From positions 1-64,000 of the IMG/VR virus record IMGVR_UViG_3300043446_005369: 64,000 nt of DNA; one strand, written 5' to 3'. A model generated the notes under the pieces. The model searched no databases. It was not told the DNA's origin and saw only the letters and a program-made list of their open reading frames with translations. The translations under genes and the position numbers were made by a program. Origin of the DNA: a virus. Of the stretch, positions 11,807 to 56,237 are shown in pieces; within the stretch, counting starts at the first letter, position 1, and every line of letters begins with the position of its first letter.

Positions 11807-13123
11807 TTACTTTTTGCTATTTTTATTTATTAAATTAATGCCGTAAGGAACACCACCATATTGTAAATTTTCTTTTCCAGTTCCAATTGCTCCGGGGGTC
11901 ATCTTAGAAGCATATTTAAAATATCCCAAAGTTCCCACTAAAGTATTTGGCTTTTTTGGCATTCTCATAATTCTTGGCATGGATTTTTCAGTATAAGCTT
12001 CATTTACATCTTTAATCCAAGACTTAAACATAATTCCATCTTCAGTAACACAAATTAAGTAGTTCGTGCCTCTTCGAATAATTTTACCACTTAATCCTGT
12101 AGTGACACTTTCAACTTGTTCACCCTCTTTAAAGATATTATTAGCAATATAATTTTCTCTTAAAGATTTTAGGTCATAATCTGGAGCAATTTCCCATGTA
12201 TGATACCCTTCTTGTTGTATCTCTTGTATATTCATTCCTTGGCGAACTGAATCAAAAAGACTTAAGGCTTCCTTATTTTTAATTTCTTTTGGCAATCCTG
12301 CACGGAATGTTATAAAATCACCTTCAGCTGCTGCGAGTCGAAGTCTAGCTGAAGATAATTGATCTAGACTCTTTCCATCTGGATCTATTTCGCCTGAAGG
12401 AATAACTTCAATTGTATCGAATTGATAAAGCTGCCCATTATAACTATTTGCAAGTTTTTCGAATTCTTTTACTCGATCCGGCCCAGTTAAAATTCTAACA
12501 TTTGAATACCCATCATTATGGGCTCTTTTTAAGACATCAAAAATCGAAATTAGATTTGTATCATTAATAATTCTTTCACTATGATATGGATACATTATTC
12601 TCATAAATGAGATTTTAGTATCAGGATCTAAAGGATTTTTCTTTGCATCTTGAGATCTGGAAGGTATAATTACGTATTCATCTCCAGATTCGGCTGCCAT
12701 GTTCATGATTTCAGAGTGCCCAATAGTGGGCGGATTAAATCTGCCGAACACAATTGCCAGAGTTCCTTTGGTCTTTGGAACCGCAGGAGGAGCGATTGTG
12801 GGCTCTTCTGGAGGCATTGGAGGCTGCTCGGCAGGAATCTCTGGTTCCGTCGCCACAGGCTGTTCTGGCTGCACTGGAGGGGCTTGAGATGGAAAGGTGG
12901 ATCCCAAGGGAATATTTTTTTGAAATTCCCCTTGCTTCGGATCCTTTCCTCCGATGATCTGATTTTTATTATAAAACTTTAATTGGCCACCAACAGTTTT
13001 TGCTTCAAATTCTCCCGTAGCTCTATTATACCATCCACCATGCCCATCACCAACATAACCAAATCTTTTTGCTTGAACAGAAGCATAAGATGCTTCCTTT
13101 AAAAATTCCTTAAAGGTTTTCAT
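11807..13123 (-). CDS. CTS-tagged nucleotidyltransferase-fold protein
   Basis: 438 residues in four parts. Residues 1-11 (MKTFKEFLKEA) match the T4 capsid-targeting tag with a possible L-K-E cleavage site. Residues 18-60 form a small Gly/Tyr-rich module, followed by a Pro-rich linker (about 78-116). Residues 120-290 form a cytidylyltransferase or NMN-adenylyltransferase-like domain: FGRFNPPTIGH carries the TxGH-type nucleotide-binding motif and LSSARLR resembles the second signature (SSTxxR). Residues 332-376 form a small beta module ending FKSWIKDVNEA. T4-like cyanophages have related proteins often labelled cytidylyltransferase. The substrate is unknown. The tag suggests packaging in the capsid, which is inference. 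Confidence 0.8.
   Translation of the reverse strand: MKTFKEFLKEASYASVQAKRFGYVGDGHGGWYNRATGEFEAKTVGGQLKFYNKNQIIGGKDPKQGEFQKNIPLGSTFPSQAPPVQPEQPVATEPEIPAEQPPMPPEEPTIAPPAVPKTKGTLAIVFGRFNPPTIGHSEIMNMAAESGDEYVIIPSRSQDAKKNPLDPDTKISFMRIMYPYHSERIINDTNLISIFDVLKRAHNDGYSNVRILTGPDRVKEFEKLANSYNGQLYQFDTIEVIPSGEIDPDGKSLDQLSSARLRLAAAEGDFITFRAGLPKEIKNKEALSLFDSVRQGMNIQEIQQEGYHTWEIAPDYDLKSLRENYIANNIFKEGEQVESVTTGLSGKIIRRGTNYLICVTEDGIMFKSWIKDVNEAYTEKSMPRIMRMPKKPNTLVGTLGYFKYASKMTPGAIGTGKENLQYGGVPYGINLINKNSKK
11824..11831 (-). promoter_or_regulatory. Late promoter variant AATAAATA
   Basis: 7 of 8 match, 33 nt before the ATG at 11791, located within the last codons of the preceding gene. Confidence 0.45.
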
Positions 13124-13164: not shown

Positions 13165-13172
13165 TATTTATG
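13165..13172 (-). promoter_or_regulatory. Late promoter variant CATAAATA
   Basis: 7 of 8 match to TATAAATA, 42 nt before the ATG at 13123. It lies in a non-coding gap that also holds a tRNA-like sequence. Confidence 0.45.
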
Positions 13173-13250: not shown

Positions 13251-13655
13251 TTATCGAATTGACATATAATTGAATAATTCCGGATGAGATTCACAATATT
13301 TTCTTATGATTTCACCTGCTTTAGCATTGGCTTCATTCTCTGAAGGACTTCCTGCTTTTGTATTTTTTTCAATTCCTTTTTCAATATGTTGTTTGTAGTG
13401 AACATATTCATGAGAAATCGTTCTTAAAATATCGACAGGATGTCTATTAATGATACTCAAATGAATTACATTATCTTTAGAGATATGACCAAATGTACGC
13501 ATGTGTGAAGCATAATCTACATCATCGATTATGACGATTGGAATGTCATATCTGAGTCGAAGTTCTCTTTTAAGATAAATTAGAAAACGTTTTAGAATTA
13601 CATTAAACTGTATTCTAGATATTGCTCTTCCTTTTGATTTACCAAGAATAGACAT
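13251..13655 (-). CDS. Putative zinc metallopeptidase (HExxH)
   Basis: 134 residues. The motif TISHEYVHYKQH holds an HExxH zinc site, and SENEANAKAGE about 20 residues later offers a third, Glu ligand. This is the arrangement of small gluzincin-type peptidases found in phages. The N-terminus is basic. It has no signal peptide, so a cytoplasmic or virion-assembly role is likely; the substrate is unknown. It lies after mazG and before a short non-coding gap. Confidence 0.65.
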   Translation of the reverse strand: MSILGKSKGRAISRIQFNVILKRFLIYLKRELRLRYDIPIVIIDDVDYASHMRTFGHISKDNVIHLSIINRHPVDILRTISHEYVHYKQHIEKGIEKNTKAGSPSENEANAKAGEIIRKYCESHPELFNYMSIR

Positions 13656-20597: not shown

Positions 20598-20756
20598 TCA
20601 ATCTCCGTTTCCTCCAGAACTAGAAGAAGACTTCTTTGCACAAGCCTTTCCTCCAGGAGCCATAGCATAAGGTATTACATTATAGCATTTTACTTTTTGA
20701 CCAGAAGATGAATTAATATATTGAACTTTTTCAATAAATTGTTCAAAAGATTTCAT
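20598..20756 (-). CDS. Small CTS-like tagged protein (52 aa)
   Basis: It starts MKSFEQFIEKVQ, resembling the MKTFxEFL tag of other proteins here, but the P1 position of the would-be cleavage site is Lys where Glu is expected. The rest is short and Ser/Gly-rich (KKSSSSSGGNGD) with two Cys. A TCTAAATA late-promoter variant lies 15 nt upstream, within the end of hsp20. A small virion component is a reasonable guess; function unknown. Confidence 0.6.
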   Translation of the reverse strand: MKSFEQFIEKVQYINSSSGQKVKCYNVIPYAMAPGGKACAKKSSSSSGGNGD

Positions 20757-38200: not shown

Positions 38201-38208
38201 TATTTATT
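38201..38208 (-). promoter_or_regulatory. Late promoter variant AATAAATA before uvsW
   Basis: 7 of 8 match, 23 nt before the uvsW ATG, overlapping the stop of the gene at 38204. Confidence 0.5.
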
Positions 38209-38611
38209 TGTCCATATAAACAGGTTTTCCTTGATATGTCCCGGTTTTAACTCTTCCTGATGCAGTTGGTCTGGATTTCATTGTCAGATATGCAGCTCCA
38301 ACGGGTCCTGCCCCTCTCAAATATGGAGCTGCAATTGAAGCTGCTGGAGCTAGAGTTTTGATTGCACCTCCCACAGCACCACCAACTGCTTTTCCTGTAA
38401 TATTTGTTAAAGTATTTGCAACATCACCTGCAGCACCAGTTATAGGATTAAAAGCAGATCCTATACCCTTAATAATATTCCTCGAAACATTTGCTGGATT
38501 TTGTCCACTTACACTTGGAAGACGATTCCAAATATTTCGAGCAACTTGACCTGCTTTAGGTGATAAAGAATTTGCTTGAACTTCTAAAATAAATTCTTGA
38601 AATGTCTTCAT
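38204..38611 (-). CDS. CTS-tagged small Ala/Gly-rich protein (135 aa)
   Basis: 135 residues. It begins MKTFQEFILEVQ, the closest match here to the T4 internal-protein tag, with a possible cleavage site I-L-E. After the tag it is basic, Ala/Gly/Thr-rich and free of acidic residues over long stretches, as expected for a DNA-associated internal protein. It lies between uvsY and uvsW. Packaging is inferred. Confidence 0.7.
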   Translation of the reverse strand: MKTFQEFILEVQANSLSPKAGQVARNIWNRLPSVSGQNPANVSRNIIKGIGSAFNPITGAAGDVANTLTNITGKAVGGAVGGAIKTLAPAASIAAPYLRGAGPVGAAYLTMKSRPTASGRVKTGTYQGKPVYMDK

Positions 38612-39055: not shown

Positions 39056-39597
39056 AGGGGCTTGTTGTTTTTGTCAAGTATGTTGTAGATAGTATACTTG
39101 AACACTGCCTCTGTTGTAAAGTACTGTATGTCCGATTTTGTCGAATCAAACTCCAATGCAGAAAGTGAAATTGGATATAAATCTTTAAATTTAATCACAA
39201 TATTAGTATTGAAATTACTATCTAAAATTGATAGTGATCCATCACTAAACCCTTTTAATGAATCTTGATTTCCAGCATCATCTGTAATTAAATTTTTATA
39301 TTGTTGCGCAGTTTCTGGAAATCCAAGACCAGTAATCCAATTATGAATAGCACTATAATTTACAAAATCTTCATCTACTAGAAATTTAATGCTAAAATCT
39401 CCATATGAAATTTTATCTCCAGGTACATCAATATCCTTTAAATAGGTGGATTGCGTTTCTGTTGATAAAGTAATATCTGGAATTTTTGCAGAATTACAAA
39501 AGAAAGCTATTTTTGGATTTTTACTAATTGTAAATTTAAATCCTATTGGAGATAAAAAATTCCGATTTGAAATTTGATTCGCAAAAGCGTTTGTCAT
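39052..39597 (-). CDS. Tail-tube-fold structural protein, probable gp3-type tail terminator
   Basis: 181 residues, near T4 gp3 (176). It begins MTNAFANQISNRNFLSPIGF and contains YLKDIDVPGDK, VNYSAIHNWITGLGFPE and, at the end, FTTEAVFKYTIYNI. These resemble tube-fold proteins (gp19/gp54 family). Its place between gp23 and uvsY is where T4-like cyanophages keep gp3. Assignment by position and fold-like motifs, so not certain. Confidence 0.65.
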   Translation of the reverse strand: MTNAFANQISNRNFLSPIGFKFTISKNPKIAFFCNSAKIPDITLSTETQSTYLKDIDVPGDKISYGDFSIKFLVDEDFVNYSAIHNWITGLGFPETAQQYKNLITDDAGNQDSLKGFSDGSLSILDSNFNTNIVIKFKDLYPISLSALEFDSTKSDIQYFTTEAVFKYTIYNILDKNNKPL

Positions 39598-39779
39598 GGA
39601 TTTTTAATTGGAACCAATCTAAATGGAGTATGAGTAACACCTCTTGCTCTAGGACCCATTTGTCCTCTTTTTGCTTTATTTAAATTATCTTGTTCTACTG
39701 ACCCAAGAGGTATTATATTATCTTTTGATATTCTTCTATTATTTGAAGCGTCTTCCAAAAATTGTTGAAAAGATTTCAT
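39594..39779 (-). CDS. CTS-like tagged small protein after gp23 (61 aa)
   Basis: 61 residues starting MKSFQQFLEDASNN, similar to the capsid-targeting tag but with Asp where the cleavage Glu would be. The rest is basic (KRGQMGPRARG). It has a TCTAAATA late-promoter variant 16 nt upstream, right after the strong gp23 terminator, and overlaps the next gene by 4 nt. A small capsid component is likely; unproven. Confidence 0.65.
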   Translation of the reverse strand: MKSFQQFLEDASNNRRISKDNIIPLGSVEQDNLNKAKRGQMGPRARGVTHTPFRLVPIKNP

Positions 39780-39846: not shown

Positions 39847-41259
39847 TCACATTAGATTTTGTACTTTAACTCTTCTGTAGTATACGTTAGAGTTTGCAGT
39901 AATGTTATCAGGTGAAGTAGCAGCAGTAGCACCCTTCGCAAATGGATTCGCAACAATACCATAACGAGTCTTAAATCCAATTTTTGGTTGGAAGGTTTGC
40001 TCACCAACTGCACGTACCATCTGTAGAGGTACGTATGGGCAATAGAAGAGACCTGCATCATAAGGAGAGGCACCCTTATAACCCATTACATAGAATTGAT
40101 TAGCAGAAACGTTTGCGGAATATGGGTCAATGTATACACGATACTTACCCTGAAGAATTCCAGCAAAAGTATTGCCAGTATCATCTACTTGAAGATTTGA
40201 GTTTAGAGCTGGGGTATAATCCAGAACTCCGGCCATAGTTAGTGCAGAAGCAACGTCGGCAGAGCAAAGGATCATATTACCCTTTCCTCTACGAGTTTGC
40301 TGAGCGATAGCGTTGGCATCACGCTCAATCTGGAAAATTAGACCTTTAAACTTCTCAACAGACCAACGGCCATTGGAGTCAACATCAAGGTCAAAAGTAC
40401 CAGCAGTTGCGGTATTAACTTGAGCACCAGGAACAGCAATCTTATAAATGGTACGAATGATCTCACGGTTAATCTCAGCAAGAATCTCAGTGGAGAGAAT
40501 ATTTGCGAGTTCCGCTTCAGCATTCAGACCATGAATAGCCTTTAGGTCCTGAGCAAGCTCAAGTGAGTACTCAGCTTTTAAAGCACGGCTCCTTGCAGTA
40601 ACGGTAAGCTTCTCGATTGAGAAAGCCATTTCGTTAAAGTAAGTTCCAGAACCACCATCACCGAGAGCTTCAGAATCGGCAGTAACCATGCCTTCACCAA
40701 CATTATAAGCCTGTTGATTAGCATTGGTTGCATCAAGAATTGAAGGATTGCTGCCTGAAACTGGTGATGTAGTACCAAGACCAACAGCACCGTCAATAAA
40801 TCCACGATCAAGATTACGTCCTTTATTTTGACCGGAGAAGGAAGAATCAGCTTCATTATAGAAAGCTTCAGTTCCAGTCATGTTATTATAACGGGAACGC
40901 ATTGCAAAAATTAGACCTGTGGGGCCGTTCATTGGCTGAACACCACAAAGATCATATGCAATGAGATTAGGCATTGAACGGCGAATCAGAGAGATTAGCA
41001 CTGGATCAAAACCTGCAACTGGAGTTCCAGTTGTATTTGAAGCACTACCAGTATATCCACCAGTTACACCAGCGGAACTAAAGCTTTGAGTAGGAGCTTC
41101 ATATAGGAAAGAGCGTTCTTCACGTAGTTCTCTTTCTTGGTTCTCTAACAGGATAGCGGTTACGGCTCTACGGTGTGAGTCTGAAATGCGATCCATTCCT
41201 TGATAATCAAGAATTGGTGCCCACTTCTCCTGCAGATACTCTGCGTTATACATCTGCAT
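39847..41259 (-). CDS. 23: Major capsid protein gp23
   Basis: 470 residues. It forms the hexamers of the capsid shell. The first ~54 residues form a removable leader: SFLYEAPTQSF holds an L-Y-E site for protease gp21 around residue 54. The mature part includes VGTTSPVSGSNPS, NIIDEEID-free HK97-like core segments such as FSIEKLTVTARSRALKAEYS, and a C-terminus with GFKTRYGIVANPFAKG. An AAGAGG ribosome site precedes the ATG, and a strong terminator follows. Confidence 0.97.
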   Translation of the reverse strand: MQMYNAEYLQEKWAPILDYQGMDRISDSHRRAVTAILLENQERELREERSFLYEAPTQSFSSAGVTGGYTGSASNTTGTPVAGFDPVLISLIRRSMPNLIAYDLCGVQPMNGPTGLIFAMRSRYNNMTGTEAFYNEADSSFSGQNKGRNLDRGFIDGAVGLGTTSPVSGSNPSILDATNANQQAYNVGEGMVTADSEALGDGGSGTYFNEMAFSIEKLTVTARSRALKAEYSLELAQDLKAIHGLNAEAELANILSTEILAEINREIIRTIYKIAVPGAQVNTATAGTFDLDVDSNGRWSVEKFKGLIFQIERDANAIAQQTRRGKGNMILCSADVASALTMAGVLDYTPALNSNLQVDDTGNTFAGILQGKYRVYIDPYSANVSANQFYVMGYKGASPYDAGLFYCPYVPLQMVRAVGEQTFQPKIGFKTRYGIVANPFAKGATAATSPDNITANSNVYYRRVKVQNLM

Positions 41260-41303: not shown

Positions 41304-42473
41304 TCACTTTCTAGCGACTCTACTAAGAGTTTCTAAGTAAGCTTCCATTGCAGGAGATACTGAGGAATACTCGGTATCCCCATCATAGTAAACTTCTTCT
41401 GAAAGAATCTCTGTAGTTTCTCTTTGAGTACTAGTAGTTGAAGGGAAATAAGATTCTCTTAGTGTTACTAGCTTCTCACGATAGTTTTCTTCACCATCAA
41501 ACTCAACATTTTCGGCAAGAGAAGCGAGTTTGTCTTTTTGAGAAAGTGCAAGACCTTCTGCGACATCTGCAAAAATTACATCAGCAACTGACTCGGCTAA
41601 TCTTCTATTAAGAGCAACATTTCTTTCAATTTGCTCGTTGAGTTTTTCTTCCATTTCATCAAGTTTATCTACCATACTCTCGACAACATCATATTTATCT
41701 TCAGGTATTGATACATAATGTTCTTCAAAAAGTTGTCTCATTCCATAAAGAAATGATTCTGTCATTTGATTTTTGATACCCATTTCGACTGCAAGAGCAT
41801 TTTCTTGCATCCATTCGTCTGCAGCATATTCTAGATAAGTATCCAGACGATCTGTGAGTTCTTCTTTAATAACTTCAATTTCTTCTACGAGTGCATTCTC
41901 GTAGGTTTCTTGAAGTTGCTCTTTAATTTCTGAAACTTTAGAACGAATCGCAGCTTCAAAAATAGTGCGAGCCTTTTCTTGAAATTCTTCAGAAAGATCT
42001 TCACCATCTAGAAGAGCACTGACATCTTCATCGATATCAAATTCCTCTTCCATTTTCTTTTCTTCAGTCTCTTCGTCTTCGTCTTCTTCGTCGTCTTCGG
42101 CTTCTTCAGAAACTACGTCTTCGTCCTCATCATCTTCTAGATATTCGTCTTCATCTTCAACTTCTTCTTTCATTCCTTGACCTGGAAGTCCAACAGGAGT
42201 TGCTGAAGTACGTGGACCTTCGGCAGCTTGAGCCCTAGCATTGACTACATTTCGTACCTGTGCTAAAGTTGCTCCAGGTGTTCTGAGAACAGCTGAATCA
42301 TCATCAGGACGATAATTTTCGGGAGTAGGGCCACCTAAATCTTCCCAAGCTCCAGTTTGTCCAGGAATCATAACTCCTGATGCATTCTGTGCAATGCCTT
42401 GCATTGGATCGGCAGCTGAAGCCCCTTTGGTTACTACGTTTTCCATTTCTTGTAAATTTCTACCAACGGACAT
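41304..42473 (-). CDS. 22: Prohead core scaffold gp22
   Basis: 389 residues. An acidic low-complexity block at about residues 105-145 (Glu/Asp runs) is followed by a long helical, Glu/Leu-rich region typical of the scaffold that gp21 later degrades. The N-terminal 100 residues are less acidic and contain PGQTGAWEDLGGPTPENY. Position between gp21 and gp23 is the T4 order. An exact late promoter lies 28 nt upstream. Confidence 0.93.
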   Translation of the reverse strand: MSVGRNLQEMENVVTKGASAADPMQGIAQNASGVMIPGQTGAWEDLGGPTPENYRPDDDSAVLRTPGATLAQVRNVVNARAQAAEGPRTSATPVGLPGQGMKEEVEDEDEYLEDDEDEDVVSEEAEDDEEDEDEETEEKKMEEEFDIDEDVSALLDGEDLSEEFQEKARTIFEAAIRSKVSEIKEQLQETYENALVEEIEVIKEELTDRLDTYLEYAADEWMQENALAVEMGIKNQMTESFLYGMRQLFEEHYVSIPEDKYDVVESMVDKLDEMEEKLNEQIERNVALNRRLAESVADVIFADVAEGLALSQKDKLASLAENVEFDGEENYREKLVTLRESYFPSTTSTQRETTEILSEEVYYDGDTEYSSVSPAMEAYLETLSRVARK

Positions 42474-42510: not shown

Positions 42511-43161
42511 TTATAAATTTGAAAGAAACTCTTGGAACAATTTTACTTTATGTTCTTGAAGTGTTCTTTCATCAACAAGTGTATTAATTCTCTTTTTTGT
42601 GGATTCTACAAGTTTTTCCTGAAGAATACCTCCACTCCACACCCACTCTTTTCCTTCCATAATACCCTGAACAAATGCGTCAGGGGCAGAAGGATCCGCT
42701 ACAATGTCTGCAGCAGTAGCCAACATAAAATCTTCTCCAACAATTTTATGACCTTCATTAGTCATTTTTAATGATCCGACACCACGAGAAGAAACTCCCA
42801 AACATACACCTTCATGAATAAGAGATTTTGCAATCTTACCCATTGGAGTTTCAAGAAGTTGAGCCTTACCTACAAAATTTCTACCTTCTTGACGAAGAGA
42901 TACAATTTTATGTGAAACTCGATCTAAATTTACAGTAGGTCCATCAGGATGTCCTAATTCGCCAAGAGCACGACCTTTATTGATAAATGATTCTGAATAA
43001 CGATTTACTTCACGGCGAAGTGTTTCTAATGGATACATTCTTCCATTACGATTACAAATGTCTCCTTGAAGGAAAATACCTTCAATAAACATTTTTTTCT
43101 CAGATCCCTTACCTTCGGTAATGAATTTTACTTTTTGAGCTTCTTCTGTGATGAGTTTCAT
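42511..43161 (-). CDS. 21: Prohead protease gp21
   Basis: 216 residues. The serine protease matures the prohead by cutting after (L/I)xE. Segments GRALGELGHPDGPTVNLDR (candidate catalytic His) and GVCLGVSSRGVGSL (candidate Ser) match T4-type prohead proteases. It lies between a small structural gene and gp22. Confidence 0.95.
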   Translation of the reverse strand: MKLITEEAQKVKFITEGKGSEKKMFIEGIFLQGDICNRNGRMYPLETLRREVNRYSESFINKGRALGELGHPDGPTVNLDRVSHKIVSLRQEGRNFVGKAQLLETPMGKIAKSLIHEGVCLGVSSRGVGSLKMTNEGHKIVGEDFMLATAADIVADPSAPDAFVQGIMEGKEWVWSGGILQEKLVESTKKRINTLVDERTLQEHKVKLFQEFLSNL

Positions 43162-43894: not shown

Positions 43895-43902
43895 TATTTA
43901 TA
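43895..43902 (-). promoter_or_regulatory. T4-type late promoter TATAAATA
   Basis: Exact match 25 nt before the ATG at 43870, overlapping the end of gene 20. Confidence 0.8.
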
Positions 43903-46846
43903 TTTTTCCACCTTTAGGATTGGGAATTTCCACCGCAGAGGTATTCATAGATGGTTCAATTGGTGTTTCTCCGGTTGGGGATTGTTCTACTCCTTGAGGG
44001 ACACCACCTTGTTGATCCGTCGCAATGGGGTTTCCAAATTCATCTACTGGTTGATTTGGATTTGGTAAAATACCTTTATTAATTTCATCTTCAATTTGCA
44101 TATCAATTTCAATGATTTCGGAATCAGTTTGACGCAGAATTTTTTTACGAATGTATTCTGTGGAATAATATTTCCCGATATATGGCTCAATTGTAGTTGC
44201 AAGTGTTAAACGATTTGTCATCAATTCTGCTTCCTTTAATTCGGCAAAATGATTATCATAAAGAAAATCATACTGAATATGATCTGCCATTTTCTCCCAA
44301 TCTTCAGGAGAAACGATGTTTTTAAGAATTAGTTGACTTCTCAGAATATCATTAAAAACATTTGCGAATTTTTTTCTTAATCTTCCAACAAATTTGGAGA
44401 ACATTAATTCGTCACGAAGAATTTCTGAAGATCTACCTAGATTAAATCCATCTCCACTACCAGCAATTCTAGATTCAGGAACTCCAAGTGCTCTATAAAG
44501 TTTTTTCTGAAAATATTGAATATCGCTGAGTTCACCTAAGTTTTGACCGCCTGGAAGAGTTGTAATTTCTGTTCCTCTTCCACCTTCTCTTCTAGGAAGC
44601 CAGAAATCTTCTAGCATACTCATGAATTTGCGATCATCTCTTATTTCACCTGTGTTTGCGTCATATACCAATTTATTCCTATAACGAGACATAACTTCTT
44701 TTAAGTATTGCTCAGCTTTTACTTTAGGAAGATTGCCGACATCAATGTAAAAAATTCTACGTTCAGGAGCCCTCGAATTATGAACTACAATACCGTTCGC
44801 CACAAAATTATGCTTTTCATGAGAAACTTCAATATCATAAACATCCTCGACTTCTGCAGTTTCCACAGAAATAATTTTTTCAAATTTTGGAAGTTCATAT
44901 TCACTTAAATACAATTCCCAGCATTGAGTTTCTGGAATTAATCTTGTCTTATTTTCCTCACCTATAATTCTTGTTTGTTCTGGTCGGATTCTATGGCGAA
45001 TTTGTCCGGAACAAAGGCCAATTGAAGTCCAGATTTCTTTAATATCTTCAATAAGCTGTTTATTTGCTAAAGAAATTTCACATGAAAATCCATTTACTAG
45101 ATCTCTATAATGTCCATCTGCATCTAGAAGTCCAAGAATAAATTCTCTTTTAATGTTATTTGGGGATGTAAATACCCAATCTGGAATTCTCTTAATTTTA
45201 GCTCCATTTTTAAATCCAAGCTTTTGCAGAAGTTCCGAAGCAAGCGTGTTGCTTGAATGGTAATTACTATATTTTCTATTAGATTTTGACCTCGTACAAT
45301 TACCAAAAAACTTTTCCATCAACTTACTATAATATAAGTTTTGAATCTCATCTTCACCTTCTGCGAATGTTACACCATATTTTGTAATACATCCATCACC
45401 AATTAAAAATCCAAATAGTCTTGCAAATTCTTCATCGATATATTCTGGAAGATTTAGTTGATTTGTACCCCAACCATATAGTTTTTCCTCGAATTTTGCA
45501 TCTTTAAGTACTTCAATTTCTTCTTGAAGTACTGCAACATCAGAAGATTCTAATGACTGAGATCCATATAAGAAATTTTGAATACTACTCCTATTGATAT
45601 TAGTTTTTTCTGAAATTTGTTGTATAACTTTTTCTTTATTGTCAATTTTATAGGAGGACCACAAGAAAGTATCTTTTAGTTTATAGCATTTTTCTCGAAC
45701 TTCTGGAAATGCAGTTTGAGTAGAGCATTCTTCTGGTCTAATGTAAGTTAAACTATGTCTTTTTGGTTGAAGATCTTTGATAGGAACGTACTTCACGTCT
45801 TTAGTCTCATTATCATAAACGAGAACTGGGTGAGTATCGGTTCCTACAACACTATGATGCTTAGACTGAACTCTAAAAGACTGTTTAGTTCCAGTTAACC
45901 ACTTATTAGATACAGTTGTTTCAACTAATTTATCAACACGATTATCATAACTATAAACTTTATCTCCAACTTGAATATCTTTAATGTATGAATAACCTTT
46001 GTCTGTTTTTACTCGGGTATCTCCAATTAAGCAAAGGCGATAAATTACCAAAGAATCTTCAATCATTCTAAGTTGATTGAGAGCCTTAATTGCTTTATGT
46101 AAATAAGATAAAATAGTTCCTTTATTGCGATCTACAAGCCCCGAAGTGCAATATGTAATAGAGTCTTTTGCAATTTTAACTCCCTTTTTGGATCCTCCGG
46201 AAATAGTTCCACTTGGAAAATTAGGAGTCGGAGTATACACAAAATACTCTTCAATTTCAGGAAAGTTATATTGTTGAGCATCAGTTCCATCATTTAGTCT
46301 AAAATTCTTATACTTATCCGCACCATTCGAAGTTCTTTTCTCTTGACGCACATGCTTCATTTTCATTGGATCAATATATCTCAATTCCTGAATTCCTTTC
46401 TCAGGATTTTTTTGATCAATGACTTTTAAATAGAATAATCTTCCATCCACATACCAATTCCTAAAAATTTCATGGCATTTTTTATCAAAATCCATGATTT
46501 CTTTAATATATTTAAATTCTATTCGAATTAGTTCTTTTAATCTATCACTCGCATTTAAATTTGATAGTTCAATTTCAACTGGAGAATCATATAGGTCACT
46601 GACAATAGCTTCATTGACTACACTTTCAATTGCACCTTCACATTCTGGATGTAAAGCCATTTCTCGGTATCTTCGAATCAAGTCGTACTCAGTTCGATAA
46701 ACACCTTCAATATCTACATATTGACCATAAAATCCAGATTGAATAAAATGATCAACCCCGTCCTCATTATTTGCGGGAACGGGGGAAACTATAGATTTAG
46801 ATTTTTTATCATTATCATCAATTGAAAAACCAAAAAGTTTTGCCAT
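43898..46846 (-). CDS. 20: Portal protein gp20, interrupted by an intein
   Basis: 982 residues as translated; splicing out the 419-residue intein leaves 563, near T4 gp20 (524). It forms the dodecameric DNA entry ring at one capsid vertex. N-extein segments include MAKLFGFSID, YRTEYDLIRRYREMA and LNQLRMIEDSLVIYRL. The C-extein resumes at SRAPERRIFYIDVGNLPK, an otherwise continuous portal motif, and includes SRIAGSGDGFNLGRSSEI. The C-terminus is Pro/Gln-rich. Confidence 0.95.
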   Translation of the reverse strand: MAKLFGFSIDDNDKKSKSIVSPVPANNEDGVDHFIQSGFYGQYVDIEGVYRTEYDLIRRYREMALHPECEGAIESVVNEAIVSDLYDSPVEIELSNLNASDRLKELIRIEFKYIKEIMDFDKKCHEIFRNWYVDGRLFYLKVIDQKNPEKGIQELRYIDPMKMKHVRQEKRTSNGADKYKNFRLNDGTDAQQYNFPEIEEYFVYTPTPNFPSGTISGGSKKGVKIAKDSITYCTSGLVDRNKGTILSYLHKAIKALNQLRMIEDSLVIYRLCLIGDTRVKTDKGYSYIKDIQVGDKVYSYDNRVDKLVETTVSNKWLTGTKQSFRVQSKHHSVVGTDTHPVLVYDNETKDVKYVPIKDLQPKRHSLTYIRPEECSTQTAFPEVREKCYKLKDTFLWSSYKIDNKEKVIQQISEKTNINRSSIQNFLYGSQSLESSDVAVLQEEIEVLKDAKFEEKLYGWGTNQLNLPEYIDEEFARLFGFLIGDGCITKYGVTFAEGEDEIQNLYYSKLMEKFFGNCTRSKSNRKYSNYHSSNTLASELLQKLGFKNGAKIKRIPDWVFTSPNNIKREFILGLLDADGHYRDLVNGFSCEISLANKQLIEDIKEIWTSIGLCSGQIRHRIRPEQTRIIGEENKTRLIPETQCWELYLSEYELPKFEKIISVETAEVEDVYDIEVSHEKHNFVANGIVVHNSRAPERRIFYIDVGNLPKVKAEQYLKEVMSRYRNKLVYDANTGEIRDDRKFMSMLEDFWLPRREGGRGTEITTLPGGQNLGELSDIQYFQKKLYRALGVPESRIAGSGDGFNLGRSSEILRDELMFSKFVGRLRKKFANVFNDILRSQLILKNIVSPEDWEKMADHIQYDFLYDNHFAELKEAELMTNRLTLATTIEPYIGKYYSTEYIRKKILRQTDSEIIEIDMQIEDEINKGILPNPNQPVDEFGNPIATDQQGGVPQGVEQSPTGETPIEPSMNTSAVEIPNPKGGKI
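44777..46033 (-). mobile_element. Intein in the portal gene with LAGLIDADG endonuclease
   Basis: 419 residues from Cys1 (CLIGDTRVKTDKGY) to Asn (NGIVVHN), followed by Ser+1. Block B is VGTDTHPVLV; the C-terminal blocks are VYDIEVSHEKHNFVANG. Endonuclease motifs are LFGFLIGDG (about residues 477-485 of the precursor) and ILGLLDADG (570-578). All splice residues are standard, so splicing is expected. Confidence 0.94.
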
Positions 46847-54875: not shown

Positions 54876-56237
54876 TCAGCAATTCCAGGATCTTAAGGAT
54901 TTATTGATCCTCGAATTTGGATCTCTTGCTGTTTTCGCTGAAGTTAATTTTTTCTTCATTCCAGTCATACGTGAGCAAAAGCTCTTTCTTCTATTCCAGG
55001 CTTTTTCTCCTTTTTTGAGTTTTGAAGGATCTTTAGTTACTGCAGTTTTTAACTTTGAGCCGGGATTTTCTTTTCTATAAGATTCAACACCAGCTTTATT
55101 CAATCCTCCGGATTCCCTTTTCCCTTCTTTACGTTGCCAAGCTGCGGTTTTAGCTTCAAGTACAAATTGCTCAAAAGTTTTAAGTTTTGAAGGATGTATA
55201 GAAGCAGCTTGTTTTCGATCAAATTTTTCTTGTTCAGCATCTTCTCCAATATAATTGCCATCAGGATCATAATGTGCTACATCTAATTTTCTAGATTTAT
55301 TTTTAGCTAAAGGAAATAGTTTAGCTCCAGTTGGTTTTGGCTCTTGATCTTTTGGATAAATTCTTTTTCCTTTTTCGCCTTTAAGGCCAGGGGCATTTGG
55401 CAATACTGGACCACGTTCTACGTTCTCTTTCATTTCACCACTATCTACATAATCCGCAGCAGAATCTAGATAGTCGGCAGCTTTTGTGATTTTTGATTGC
55501 ACCCACGCCTCGATATTTCCTTCTCCCTTCATTTTTTTACGAAGTCTTTTTACAGCAGATGAAATTGTGTAAAGTTCTGATCTTGCCATAGAATGCTCAT
55601 GATCAACTGCTTCTGGCATATTTCCGGGATGTGGTGTATTTGGAGTGTATTTATTTCCCAAACGTATTGGCTGGGAAAACATATCCCAAACTCGTTCTCC
55701 ATATTTACACTCATTTCTGGTTTCATTTTTATTGCATTTAGGGCAATATCTGACACCATTCGATTCGGCCACTGGCACACAATTCGGAACTTCTTTGCCA
55801 TTTTTTATTTTTGTGCGTGGAGTTCCTAATTTTTTTCCTGACCAACATTTGCTTGCTCCAACATTTTTTCTAGCTTGTTTAATTCCCTCATCAATCTTTA
55901 AGGTTTTGGGGTATCCTTTTTCACCTTTTTTTGCTGGACGTTCACCACGGGCTCTCTTTGCATGAATGTTATCCCATAAGCCCATTTTTTCTTCATTTAC
56001 ATCCTTAAATTTTTTATGGTTTTTAATTGCAGATTTTTCCATTTTTTTAAGTCTTGTGTAATAATCGGGAATTTCGTCCAAATGTTGAAGAGCAATATCA
56101 GTAGCTAAATCTTTATCTTTAGTATGTTCATGTTCAATTTGAACTCCCATCTTGAGTTGATTTTGAACAAATGAAACATCTAAACGATGTTTTTTTGCTA
56201 TGCTTTCTACTGTGCTATGAGATTTTATTTGAGTCAC
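54876..56237 (-). CDS. Mosaic protein: DUF5661-like, internal CTS, DUF6321-like
   Basis: 453 residues built of modules. Residues 1-70 (IAKKHRLDVSFVQNQL, then EHTKDKDLATDIALQHLDE and IPDYYTRL) resemble DUF5661. GLWDNIHAKRARGERPAKKG follows, then CPKC and NECKYG cysteines. SMARSELYTISSAVKRL with WVQSKITKAADYLDSAADYV is a helical module known from phage virion proteins. At about residue 355, KLKTFEQFVLEAKTA looks like an internal capsid-targeting tag with a V-L-E site. The end, NRRKSFCSRMTGMKKKL to INKSLRSWNC, resembles DUF6321. It lies between gp16 and gp17. Family names are from memory. Confidence 0.75.
   Translation of the reverse strand: MTQIKSHSTVESIAKKHRLDVSFVQNQLKMGVQIEHEHTKDKDLATDIALQHLDEIPDYYTRLKKMEKSAIKNHKKFKDVNEEKMGLWDNIHAKRARGERPAKKGEKGYPKTLKIDEGIKQARKNVGASKCWSGKKLGTPRTKIKNGKEVPNCVPVAESNGVRYCPKCNKNETRNECKYGERVWDMFSQPIRLGNKYTPNTPHPGNMPEAVDHEHSMARSELYTISSAVKRLRKKMKGEGNIEAWVQSKITKAADYLDSAADYVDSGEMKENVERGPVLPNAPGLKGEKGKRIYPKDQEPKPTGAKLFPLAKNKSRKLDVAHYDPDGNYIGEDAEQEKFDRKQAASIHPSKLKTFEQFVLEAKTAAWQRKEGKRESGGLNKAGVESYRKENPGSKLKTAVTKDPSKLKKGEKAWNRRKSFCSRMTGMKKKLTSAKTARDPNSRINKSLRSWNC

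Follow-up and report, generated by a model that had tools for sequence, protein, structure and literature searches.

The 438-residue protein encoded at 11807-13123 (minus strand) of the window, i.e. the whole 64,000-nt stretch of viral DNA analysed here, is with a probability of roughly 0.83 packaged and processed as an enzyme-bearing internal head protein of a T4-like myovirus. It combines a capsid-targeting sequence of the T4 kind with a nucleotidyltransferase (NTase) domain. Packaging as such appears almost certain and cleavage of the tag by the prohead protease gp21 highly probable; entry into the host cell, judged by analogy with T4, is a reasonable expectation. The presence of tagged relatives in purified particles suggests delivery of pre-formed enzymes to the host along with the DNA of such phages.

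The gp23 of this phage is 87% identical to that of the freshwater Synechococcus phage S-SRM01, whose NTase copy is also the best annotated match to the window enzyme (68%), and the host is probably a cyanobacterium. P-SSM2_194 is annotated as T4-GC190, which places the window protein in that family; 544 annotated phage records carry the NTase family. Translated from its ATG, the protein begins MKTFKEFLKEASYASVQ. The gene and its parts are as follows.

11807..13123 (-): coding sequence with tag, DGHGGWY module, Pro-rich linker, NTase domain and SH3-like module (phrog_395 / T4-GC190); translation, Pfam and PHROGs, T4-GC190 via P-SSM2_194
13094..13123 (-): capsid-targeting sequence MKTFKEFLKE, residues 1-10; T4 mutagenesis (PMC9026906) and conservation in relatives
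12944..13075 (-): DGHGGWY module, about residues 17-60; common to S-CREM2 gp12 and gp14 (virion-borne) and S-CRM01 g128 and g130
12770..12943 (-): Pro-rich linker, about residues 61-118, variable in length, disordered in the model; alignment and structure model
12224..12769 (-): NTase domain, about residues 119-300, block pLDDT mostly 80-90; Pfam, structure model and Foldseek
12716..12727 (-): T-I-G-H nucleotide-binding motif, residues 133-136; translation and alignment
12338..12355 (-): S-S-A-R-L-R, the SSTxxR-like motif, residues 257-262; alignment
11993..12136 (-): C-terminal SH3-like module, about residues 330-377 (phrog_4808 region); PHROGs and structure model
13165..13172 (-): late-promoter-like CATAAATA, starting 49 nt ahead of the ATG; from a motif scan, and so a motif, not a transcript

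In S-RSM4, S-PM2, and Sf-FP1, where the protein is split, the SH3-like module has an ORF to itself. A small IrrE/M78-like protein (13251-13655, minus strand) is encoded upstream of the NTase gene and is conserved in S-SRM01 and in the nearest relative (L003); Peptidase_M78 is also matched by one protein from the blind tag scan given below.

Capsid-targeting tag, processing machinery and late promoter

The N-terminus had been likened in a preliminary description, made without database searches, to the tag of T4 internal protein IPIII, and this resemblance is borne out by conservation of the T4 targeting and processing residues. Across 87 distinct IMG/VR relatives F4 and F7 are each kept in 87/87, K2 in 86/87, [ILV]8 in 85/87, E10 in 83/87, and [AS]11 in 79/87, and positions 3, 5, 6, and 9 vary; the sample is biased to the window's own architecture, since the relatives were retrieved via conserved peptides of the full-length protein. 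In 25 non-redundant relatives positions 4 and 7 have an entropy of 0 bits, position 10 one of 0.48, and positions 3, 5, 6, and 9 values of 1.7-2.7. According to a review of mutagenesis of the T4 IPIII tag, residues 4 and 7 serve targeting and residues 8 and 10 processing (PMC9026906); thus, the positions conserved here are the same residues that mutation in T4 found to matter. The match departs from IPIII at position 4, which is F in this protein and in 87/87 relatives and Y in IPIII. Like internal head proteins, the window protein has aromatic residues at 4 and 7 (F4, F7), and L8, E10, and A11 around the cut, which is predicted to fall between residues 10 and 11 (LKE|A) and to give a mature N-terminus ASYASVQ.

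A chance N-terminus was rejected on residue-specific conservation and on two background counts. The tag is found on only 2/968 other ORFs in the relatives' loci (7 listed, 5/7 of them further family members), and a DNA pattern for M-K-x-F-x-x-F-[IL]-x-E-A, scanned blind over IMG/VR, matched at least 120 contigs as against 15 for a control pattern with one F codon shifted (complete scan). Nor does the tag simply travel with the DGHG module, for it directly precedes the NTase in S-CREM2, S-CRM01, S-SZBM1, P-RSM6, and several IMG/VR families.

The T4-type protease gp21, the scaffold gp22 and the capsid protein gp23 all lie within the window, as do further tags of differing quality.

42511..43161 (-): prohead protease gp21, predicted to do the processing; Pfam Peptidase_S77, E=1.5e-35
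41304..42473 (-): gp22 scaffold, presumed docking core for the tag; Pfam T4_CASP, E=1.6e-79
39847..41259 (-): gp23 major capsid protein, predicted gp21 site FLYE|APTQ after residue 54; Pfam and motif
38204..38611 (-): further tagged protein, MKTFQEFILE|V, 135 aa; N-terminal tag pattern
39594..39779 (-): 61-aa protein with tag MKSFQQFLED, Asp at 10; tag pattern, PMC9026906
1039..2736 (-): Pro-rich protein of 565 aa with possible tag MKTFREFVFIIEN and a late-promoter motif, TATAAATAT, at -30; tag pattern and promoter scan
20598..20756 (-): 52-aa ORF with a weak candidate tag, MKSFEQFIEK, which has K at position 10; tag pattern

The earlier proposal of a gp21 site at L-K-E|A fits the form of L-Y-E|A in gp23 of the same phage, FLKE|ASYA and FLYE|APTQ being alike, and the gp23 proteins of three phages whose virion proteomes are published read FLAE|A, LLTE|A, and ILTE|A at this point, all of these gp23 sites being motif predictions. 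Asp at tag position 10, as in the 61-aa protein, allows targeting and blocks processing in T4 (PMC9026906). An internal tag-like LKTFEQFVLEA is present in the DUF5661 protein at 54876-56237 (minus strand), just ahead of its C-terminal DUF6321 domain; given tagged DUF6321 and DUF5661 proteins elsewhere, gp21 could cut this protein internally. The portal gp20 (43898-46846, minus strand) has Pfam matches to Portal_T4, Intein_splicing, and LAGLIDADG_3, and its length of 982 aa is explained by an intein with a LAGLIDADG-type endonuclease. An apparent intein remnant also stands ahead of GVGKS in the gp41 helicase of the nearest relative (L003:88-1254).

The published late promoter of cyanomyoviruses is NATAAATA (PMC2984593). 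A late-promoter motif is found in 39/98 relatives versus 6% in shuffles. Within the window such sites stand before gp22, gp18, and virion-type genes nearby, and none was found upstream of the replication genes gp41, uvsX, gp43, gp44, gp46, and gp47 or of nrdA and nrdB; the rule is imperfect, as UvsW also has one.

The protein would be expressed late, as an internal head protein of an S-SRM01-related T4-like phage. Through residues 1-10, with F4 and F7, it would bind to the prohead's gp22 scaffolding core, and as the head matures gp21 would cut LKE|A, so that a protein starting ASYASVQ... is retained in the capsid with the DNA; docking and cutting of this kind are suggested by the match of the tag to T4, by the gp21 and gp23 that this genome encodes, and by the virion proteomes of orthologues. 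T4 internal proteins and Alt that are retained in the head are injected, and Alt, an ADP-ribosyltransferase, acts on the host after entry. By this analogy the window protein would most likely leave the head with the DNA and act in the cell from the first minutes, and the initial suggestion of injection with immediate action on host nucleotides or NAD is plausible.

The nucleotidyltransferase domain and its likely chemistry

The assignment of the domain to cytidylyl- or NMN-adenylyltransferases in the preliminary description finds support as far as the superfamily goes. Pfam CTP_transf_like (PF01467) matches residues 125-219 (E=2.5e-6, 28.2 bits versus a curated cut-off of 21), and phrog_395 'cytidyltransferase' matches with E=4e-87. 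The NMN adenylyltransferase models PRK01153, TIGR01526, and TIGR01527 score far below their cut-offs (24.6 versus 127, 20.4 versus 341, and 19.3 versus 181 bits), yet NMN/NaMN adenylyltransferases are the closest curated subfamilies in NCBIfam. A teichoic-acid-type glycerol-3-phosphate cytidylyltransferase (TagD) was rejected, no such model appearing among 11 NCBIfam matches at E<=10. Both motifs named earlier, TxGH-type and SSTxxR-like, are present as TIGH (133-136) and LSSARLR (256-262). (H/T)xGH or TxAH together with KKNPL is kept in the 98 family members collected, and H136, K161, K162, N163, and R262 are invariant in an alignment of 18 rows.

A sequence search of the PDB with the window protein gave nothing below E=0.1. 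The structure model has a whole-protein mean pLDDT of 63.7, and its NTase part matches NadD and CoaD equally by Foldseek against the PDB (E about 1e-6, 14-21% identity). The fold and the (H/T)xGH and SSTxxR-like motifs are those of the NMN/NaMN adenylyltransferases (NadM, NadR, NadD) and CoaD, from which the window protein differs in scoring far below curated cut-offs. The NadD/CoaD fold matches, with NMN adenylyltransferases as best curated subfamilies, make adenylyl transfer likelier than cytidylyl transfer. The protein is likely to be catalytically active. As an alpha/beta nucleotidyltransferase it would most probably adenylylate a small phosphorylated acceptor; NMN or NaMN is put forward tentatively as substrate, and NMN, which would tie the enzyme to NAD supply, is the best single guess on family scores only.

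Orthologues in virions and competing explanations

Mass spectrometry has detected orthologues in the virions of four phages: T4-GC190 in S-SM1 (PMC3037559), ORF91 in S-SCSM1 (PMC9602691), S-SZBM1_140 with 2 peptides in S-SZBM1 (PMC9146016), and gp154 with 3 peptides in S-CREM2 (PMC10665884). All four begin with a tag, MKKFSAFLNE|A in S-SM1, MKSFLQFLKE|A in S-SCSM1, MRFRQFIIE|A in S-SZBM1 (one residue shorter than the other three), and MKNFSSFLTE|A in S-CREM2. The S-PM2 copy is untagged and fused to a DUF6267 fragment; according to Sullivan et al. (PMC3037559) T4-GC190 is encoded by S-PM2 and undetected in its virion, the virion data being those of another study whose depth may differ. Phylogenetically, by their NTase domains, the cyanophage copies that lack a tag, those of S-PM2, P-HM1, S-RSM4, and Sf-FP1, group together in a single clade with support of 98/93. 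Demonstration of tag removal in cyanophages was not found in the literature covered, nor N-terminal peptide data in the text of the virion-proteome papers. The conserved tag residues, gp21 in the genome, the late-promoter motif, and the proteomes of four tagged orthologues together give good support to the capsid-targeting and packaging proposed in the preliminary description.

The tag is also associated with virion detection more widely. For S-CREM2 and S-SCSM1 together, the strict tag is found on 4/88 virion versus 1/361 other proteins (one-sided Fisher p=0.006) and a looser tag on 7 virion versus 3 other proteins (p=0.0006), values that are indicative only because the S-CREM2 table covers part of the genome (ORFs 85-105 and 190 onwards unused, portal gp141 left out) and because the pattern was widened slightly, allowing I at position 2, after S-CRM01 and P-RSM6 had been seen. 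In S-SCSM1 alone the counts are 1/48 and 1/234 (p=0.31), and significance is reached only with S-CREM2 added.

The main rival to an injected enzyme is a purely structural one, in which the protein is packaged by its tag and serves the core of the head, in head assembly or DNA arrangement, the NTase being a vestige or binding platform. Several relatives would suit it: L146:1670-2224 (185 aa) and L230:10506-11114 (203 aa) keep the tag with the DGHG and SH3-like modules and have no NTase domain, and the (H/T)xGH motif is degraded in tagged relatives to FNPPSKEH (L176/L180/L218) or FNPPSKNH (L205). The NTase domain is moreover flanked by two extra modules, and T4-GC190 is described as a core gene, present in 16/16 cyanophages compared (PMC3037559). 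The persistence of the nucleotide-binding and KKNPL motifs in 98 members and the five invariant residues weigh on the other side, as do the untagged P-HM1, S-RSM4, and jumbo coliphage slurp01, which keep the NTase as a separate protein and so indicate that the domain is selected for itself. A structural role is considered unlikely. Less probable still is activity confined to assembly, whereby the tag would recruit the protein to the prohead core, e.g. to modify some head protein, or nucleotides close by, ahead of DNA packaging, and nothing would be delivered to the next host. The injection of head-retained T4 internal proteins and Alt speaks against this, as does the detection of orthologues in mature CsCl-purified virions, from which it follows that the protein stays in the head. 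In its favour, core proteins such as gp21, gp22, and gp67/gp68 mostly disappear or survive only as fragments once the head has matured (PMC9026906).

Carry-over of a normal metabolic enzyme that is synthesised during infection, with an N-terminus that is simply an amphipathic start segment, is very improbable. The authors of two of the proteome papers themselves allow for carry-over of abundant soluble protein, and an untagged NMNAT-like protein has been detected in virions of S-CBWM1, which is not a T4-like phage, so packaging by other routes, or carry-over, also occurs. Four independent detections in tagged phages speak against such an origin; it is further opposed by the residue-specific conservation of the tag, its association with virion detection across two proteomes, and a late-promoter motif of the gene's own beside early genes. 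Packaging as an enzyme-bearing internal head protein remains the preferred reading.

Known systems and tagged cargoes beyond T4-GC190

The window protein shares with T4 IPI-IPIII the ten-residue M-K-x-[FY]-x-x-F-[IL]-x-E|A tag, the retention of residues 4/7 and 8/10, gp21 and gp22 in the genome, and, as a sequence motif, a late promoter; it differs in having F rather than Y at position 4 and a cargo that is a roughly 430-residue multidomain NTase protein with DGHG and SH3-like modules. It would resemble T4 Alt in being an enzyme of a T4-like head (PMC9026906), although the fold and chemistry are different, Alt consuming NAD and an NMNAT making it. The virion NMNAT of S-SCSM1, S-SZBM1, S-CREM2, and S-SM1, i.e. 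the T4-GC190 'cytitidyltransferase', belongs to the same family and the same gene neighbourhood (S-SCSM1 ORF91 is 45% identical over 93%), and the window protein is a new member of it.

The presence of T4-GC190 in virions is already published, and host entry was proposed for S-SCSM1 (PMC9602691); the capsid-targeting sequences of T4 are classical. What is new is the tag as the explanation for the presence of T4-GC190 in virions. The passages covered of the T4-GC190 virion papers make no mention of a tag, and within a partial coverage of the literature no paper joining capsid targeting with cyanophage or Synechococcus was found. The tag offers a mechanism for the recurrence of metabolic enzymes in cyanophage virion proteomes, where authors could not exclude carry-over. 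Being readable from sequence, it predicts packaged proteins, cut sites and, by analogy, injection in many of the 544 phage records and in uncultured viruses, and enzyme injection by phages of the main oceanic phototrophs becomes a directly testable question.

Cargoes other than the NTase are evident in several phages. Two further virion-borne enzymes of S-CREM2 are tagged, the SAM hydrolase gp6 with MKDFDSFLEE and the kinase gp14 with MKRFDAFLTE, and gp13 and gp136 of this phage have looser versions of the tag. In S-CRM01 the tag or a close form is found on the kinase g130, on g129, and on the NTase g127; protein kinases are present in S-CRM01 virions according to PMC10665884. Among the matches listed from the blind tag scan NTases are the most frequent cargo, making up at least 47/114 tagged ORFs (at least 41%); the others among these include DUF6267, DUF5661, DPBB, GNAT, and deoxyribonucleotidase-like proteins, whose packaging is a prediction from sequence. 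With odds slightly better than even, the T4 capsid-targeting sequence may serve cyanophages and related T4-like phages as a general signal by which a whole kit of enzymes is loaded for injection. The proposed members of the kit are the NTase, a protein kinase, a SAM hydrolase, DUF6267 proteins that bear a ligase-like KWDGAP motif, a deoxyribonucleotidase-like protein, an acetyltransferase, and others, several of them linked by a common DGHG module. If true, such a kit would reset host nucleotide and NAD metabolism, together with host defence, ahead of all phage gene expression.

DUF6267 (T4-GC71) proteins carry a KWDGAP motif reminiscent of covalent nucleotidyltransferases (L121:3372-4268, L123:2284-3489, and L141:4695-5942). 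DUF6267 adjoins the NTase in many cyanophages, is fused to it in metaG-MbCM1, and is capsid-tagged in L141. Tagged ORFs in L177, L235, and L153 have HGT...GF segments that look ADP-ribosyltransferase-like by eye and have no Pfam match. A GFTG..A..GP.AGYDPLM-like stretch is common to small virion proteins, those of L043 (S-CREM2 gp160 and gp145) and S-SCSM1 ORF97 and ORF42, and recurs in the N-terminal region of gp23, right after its cleavage site.
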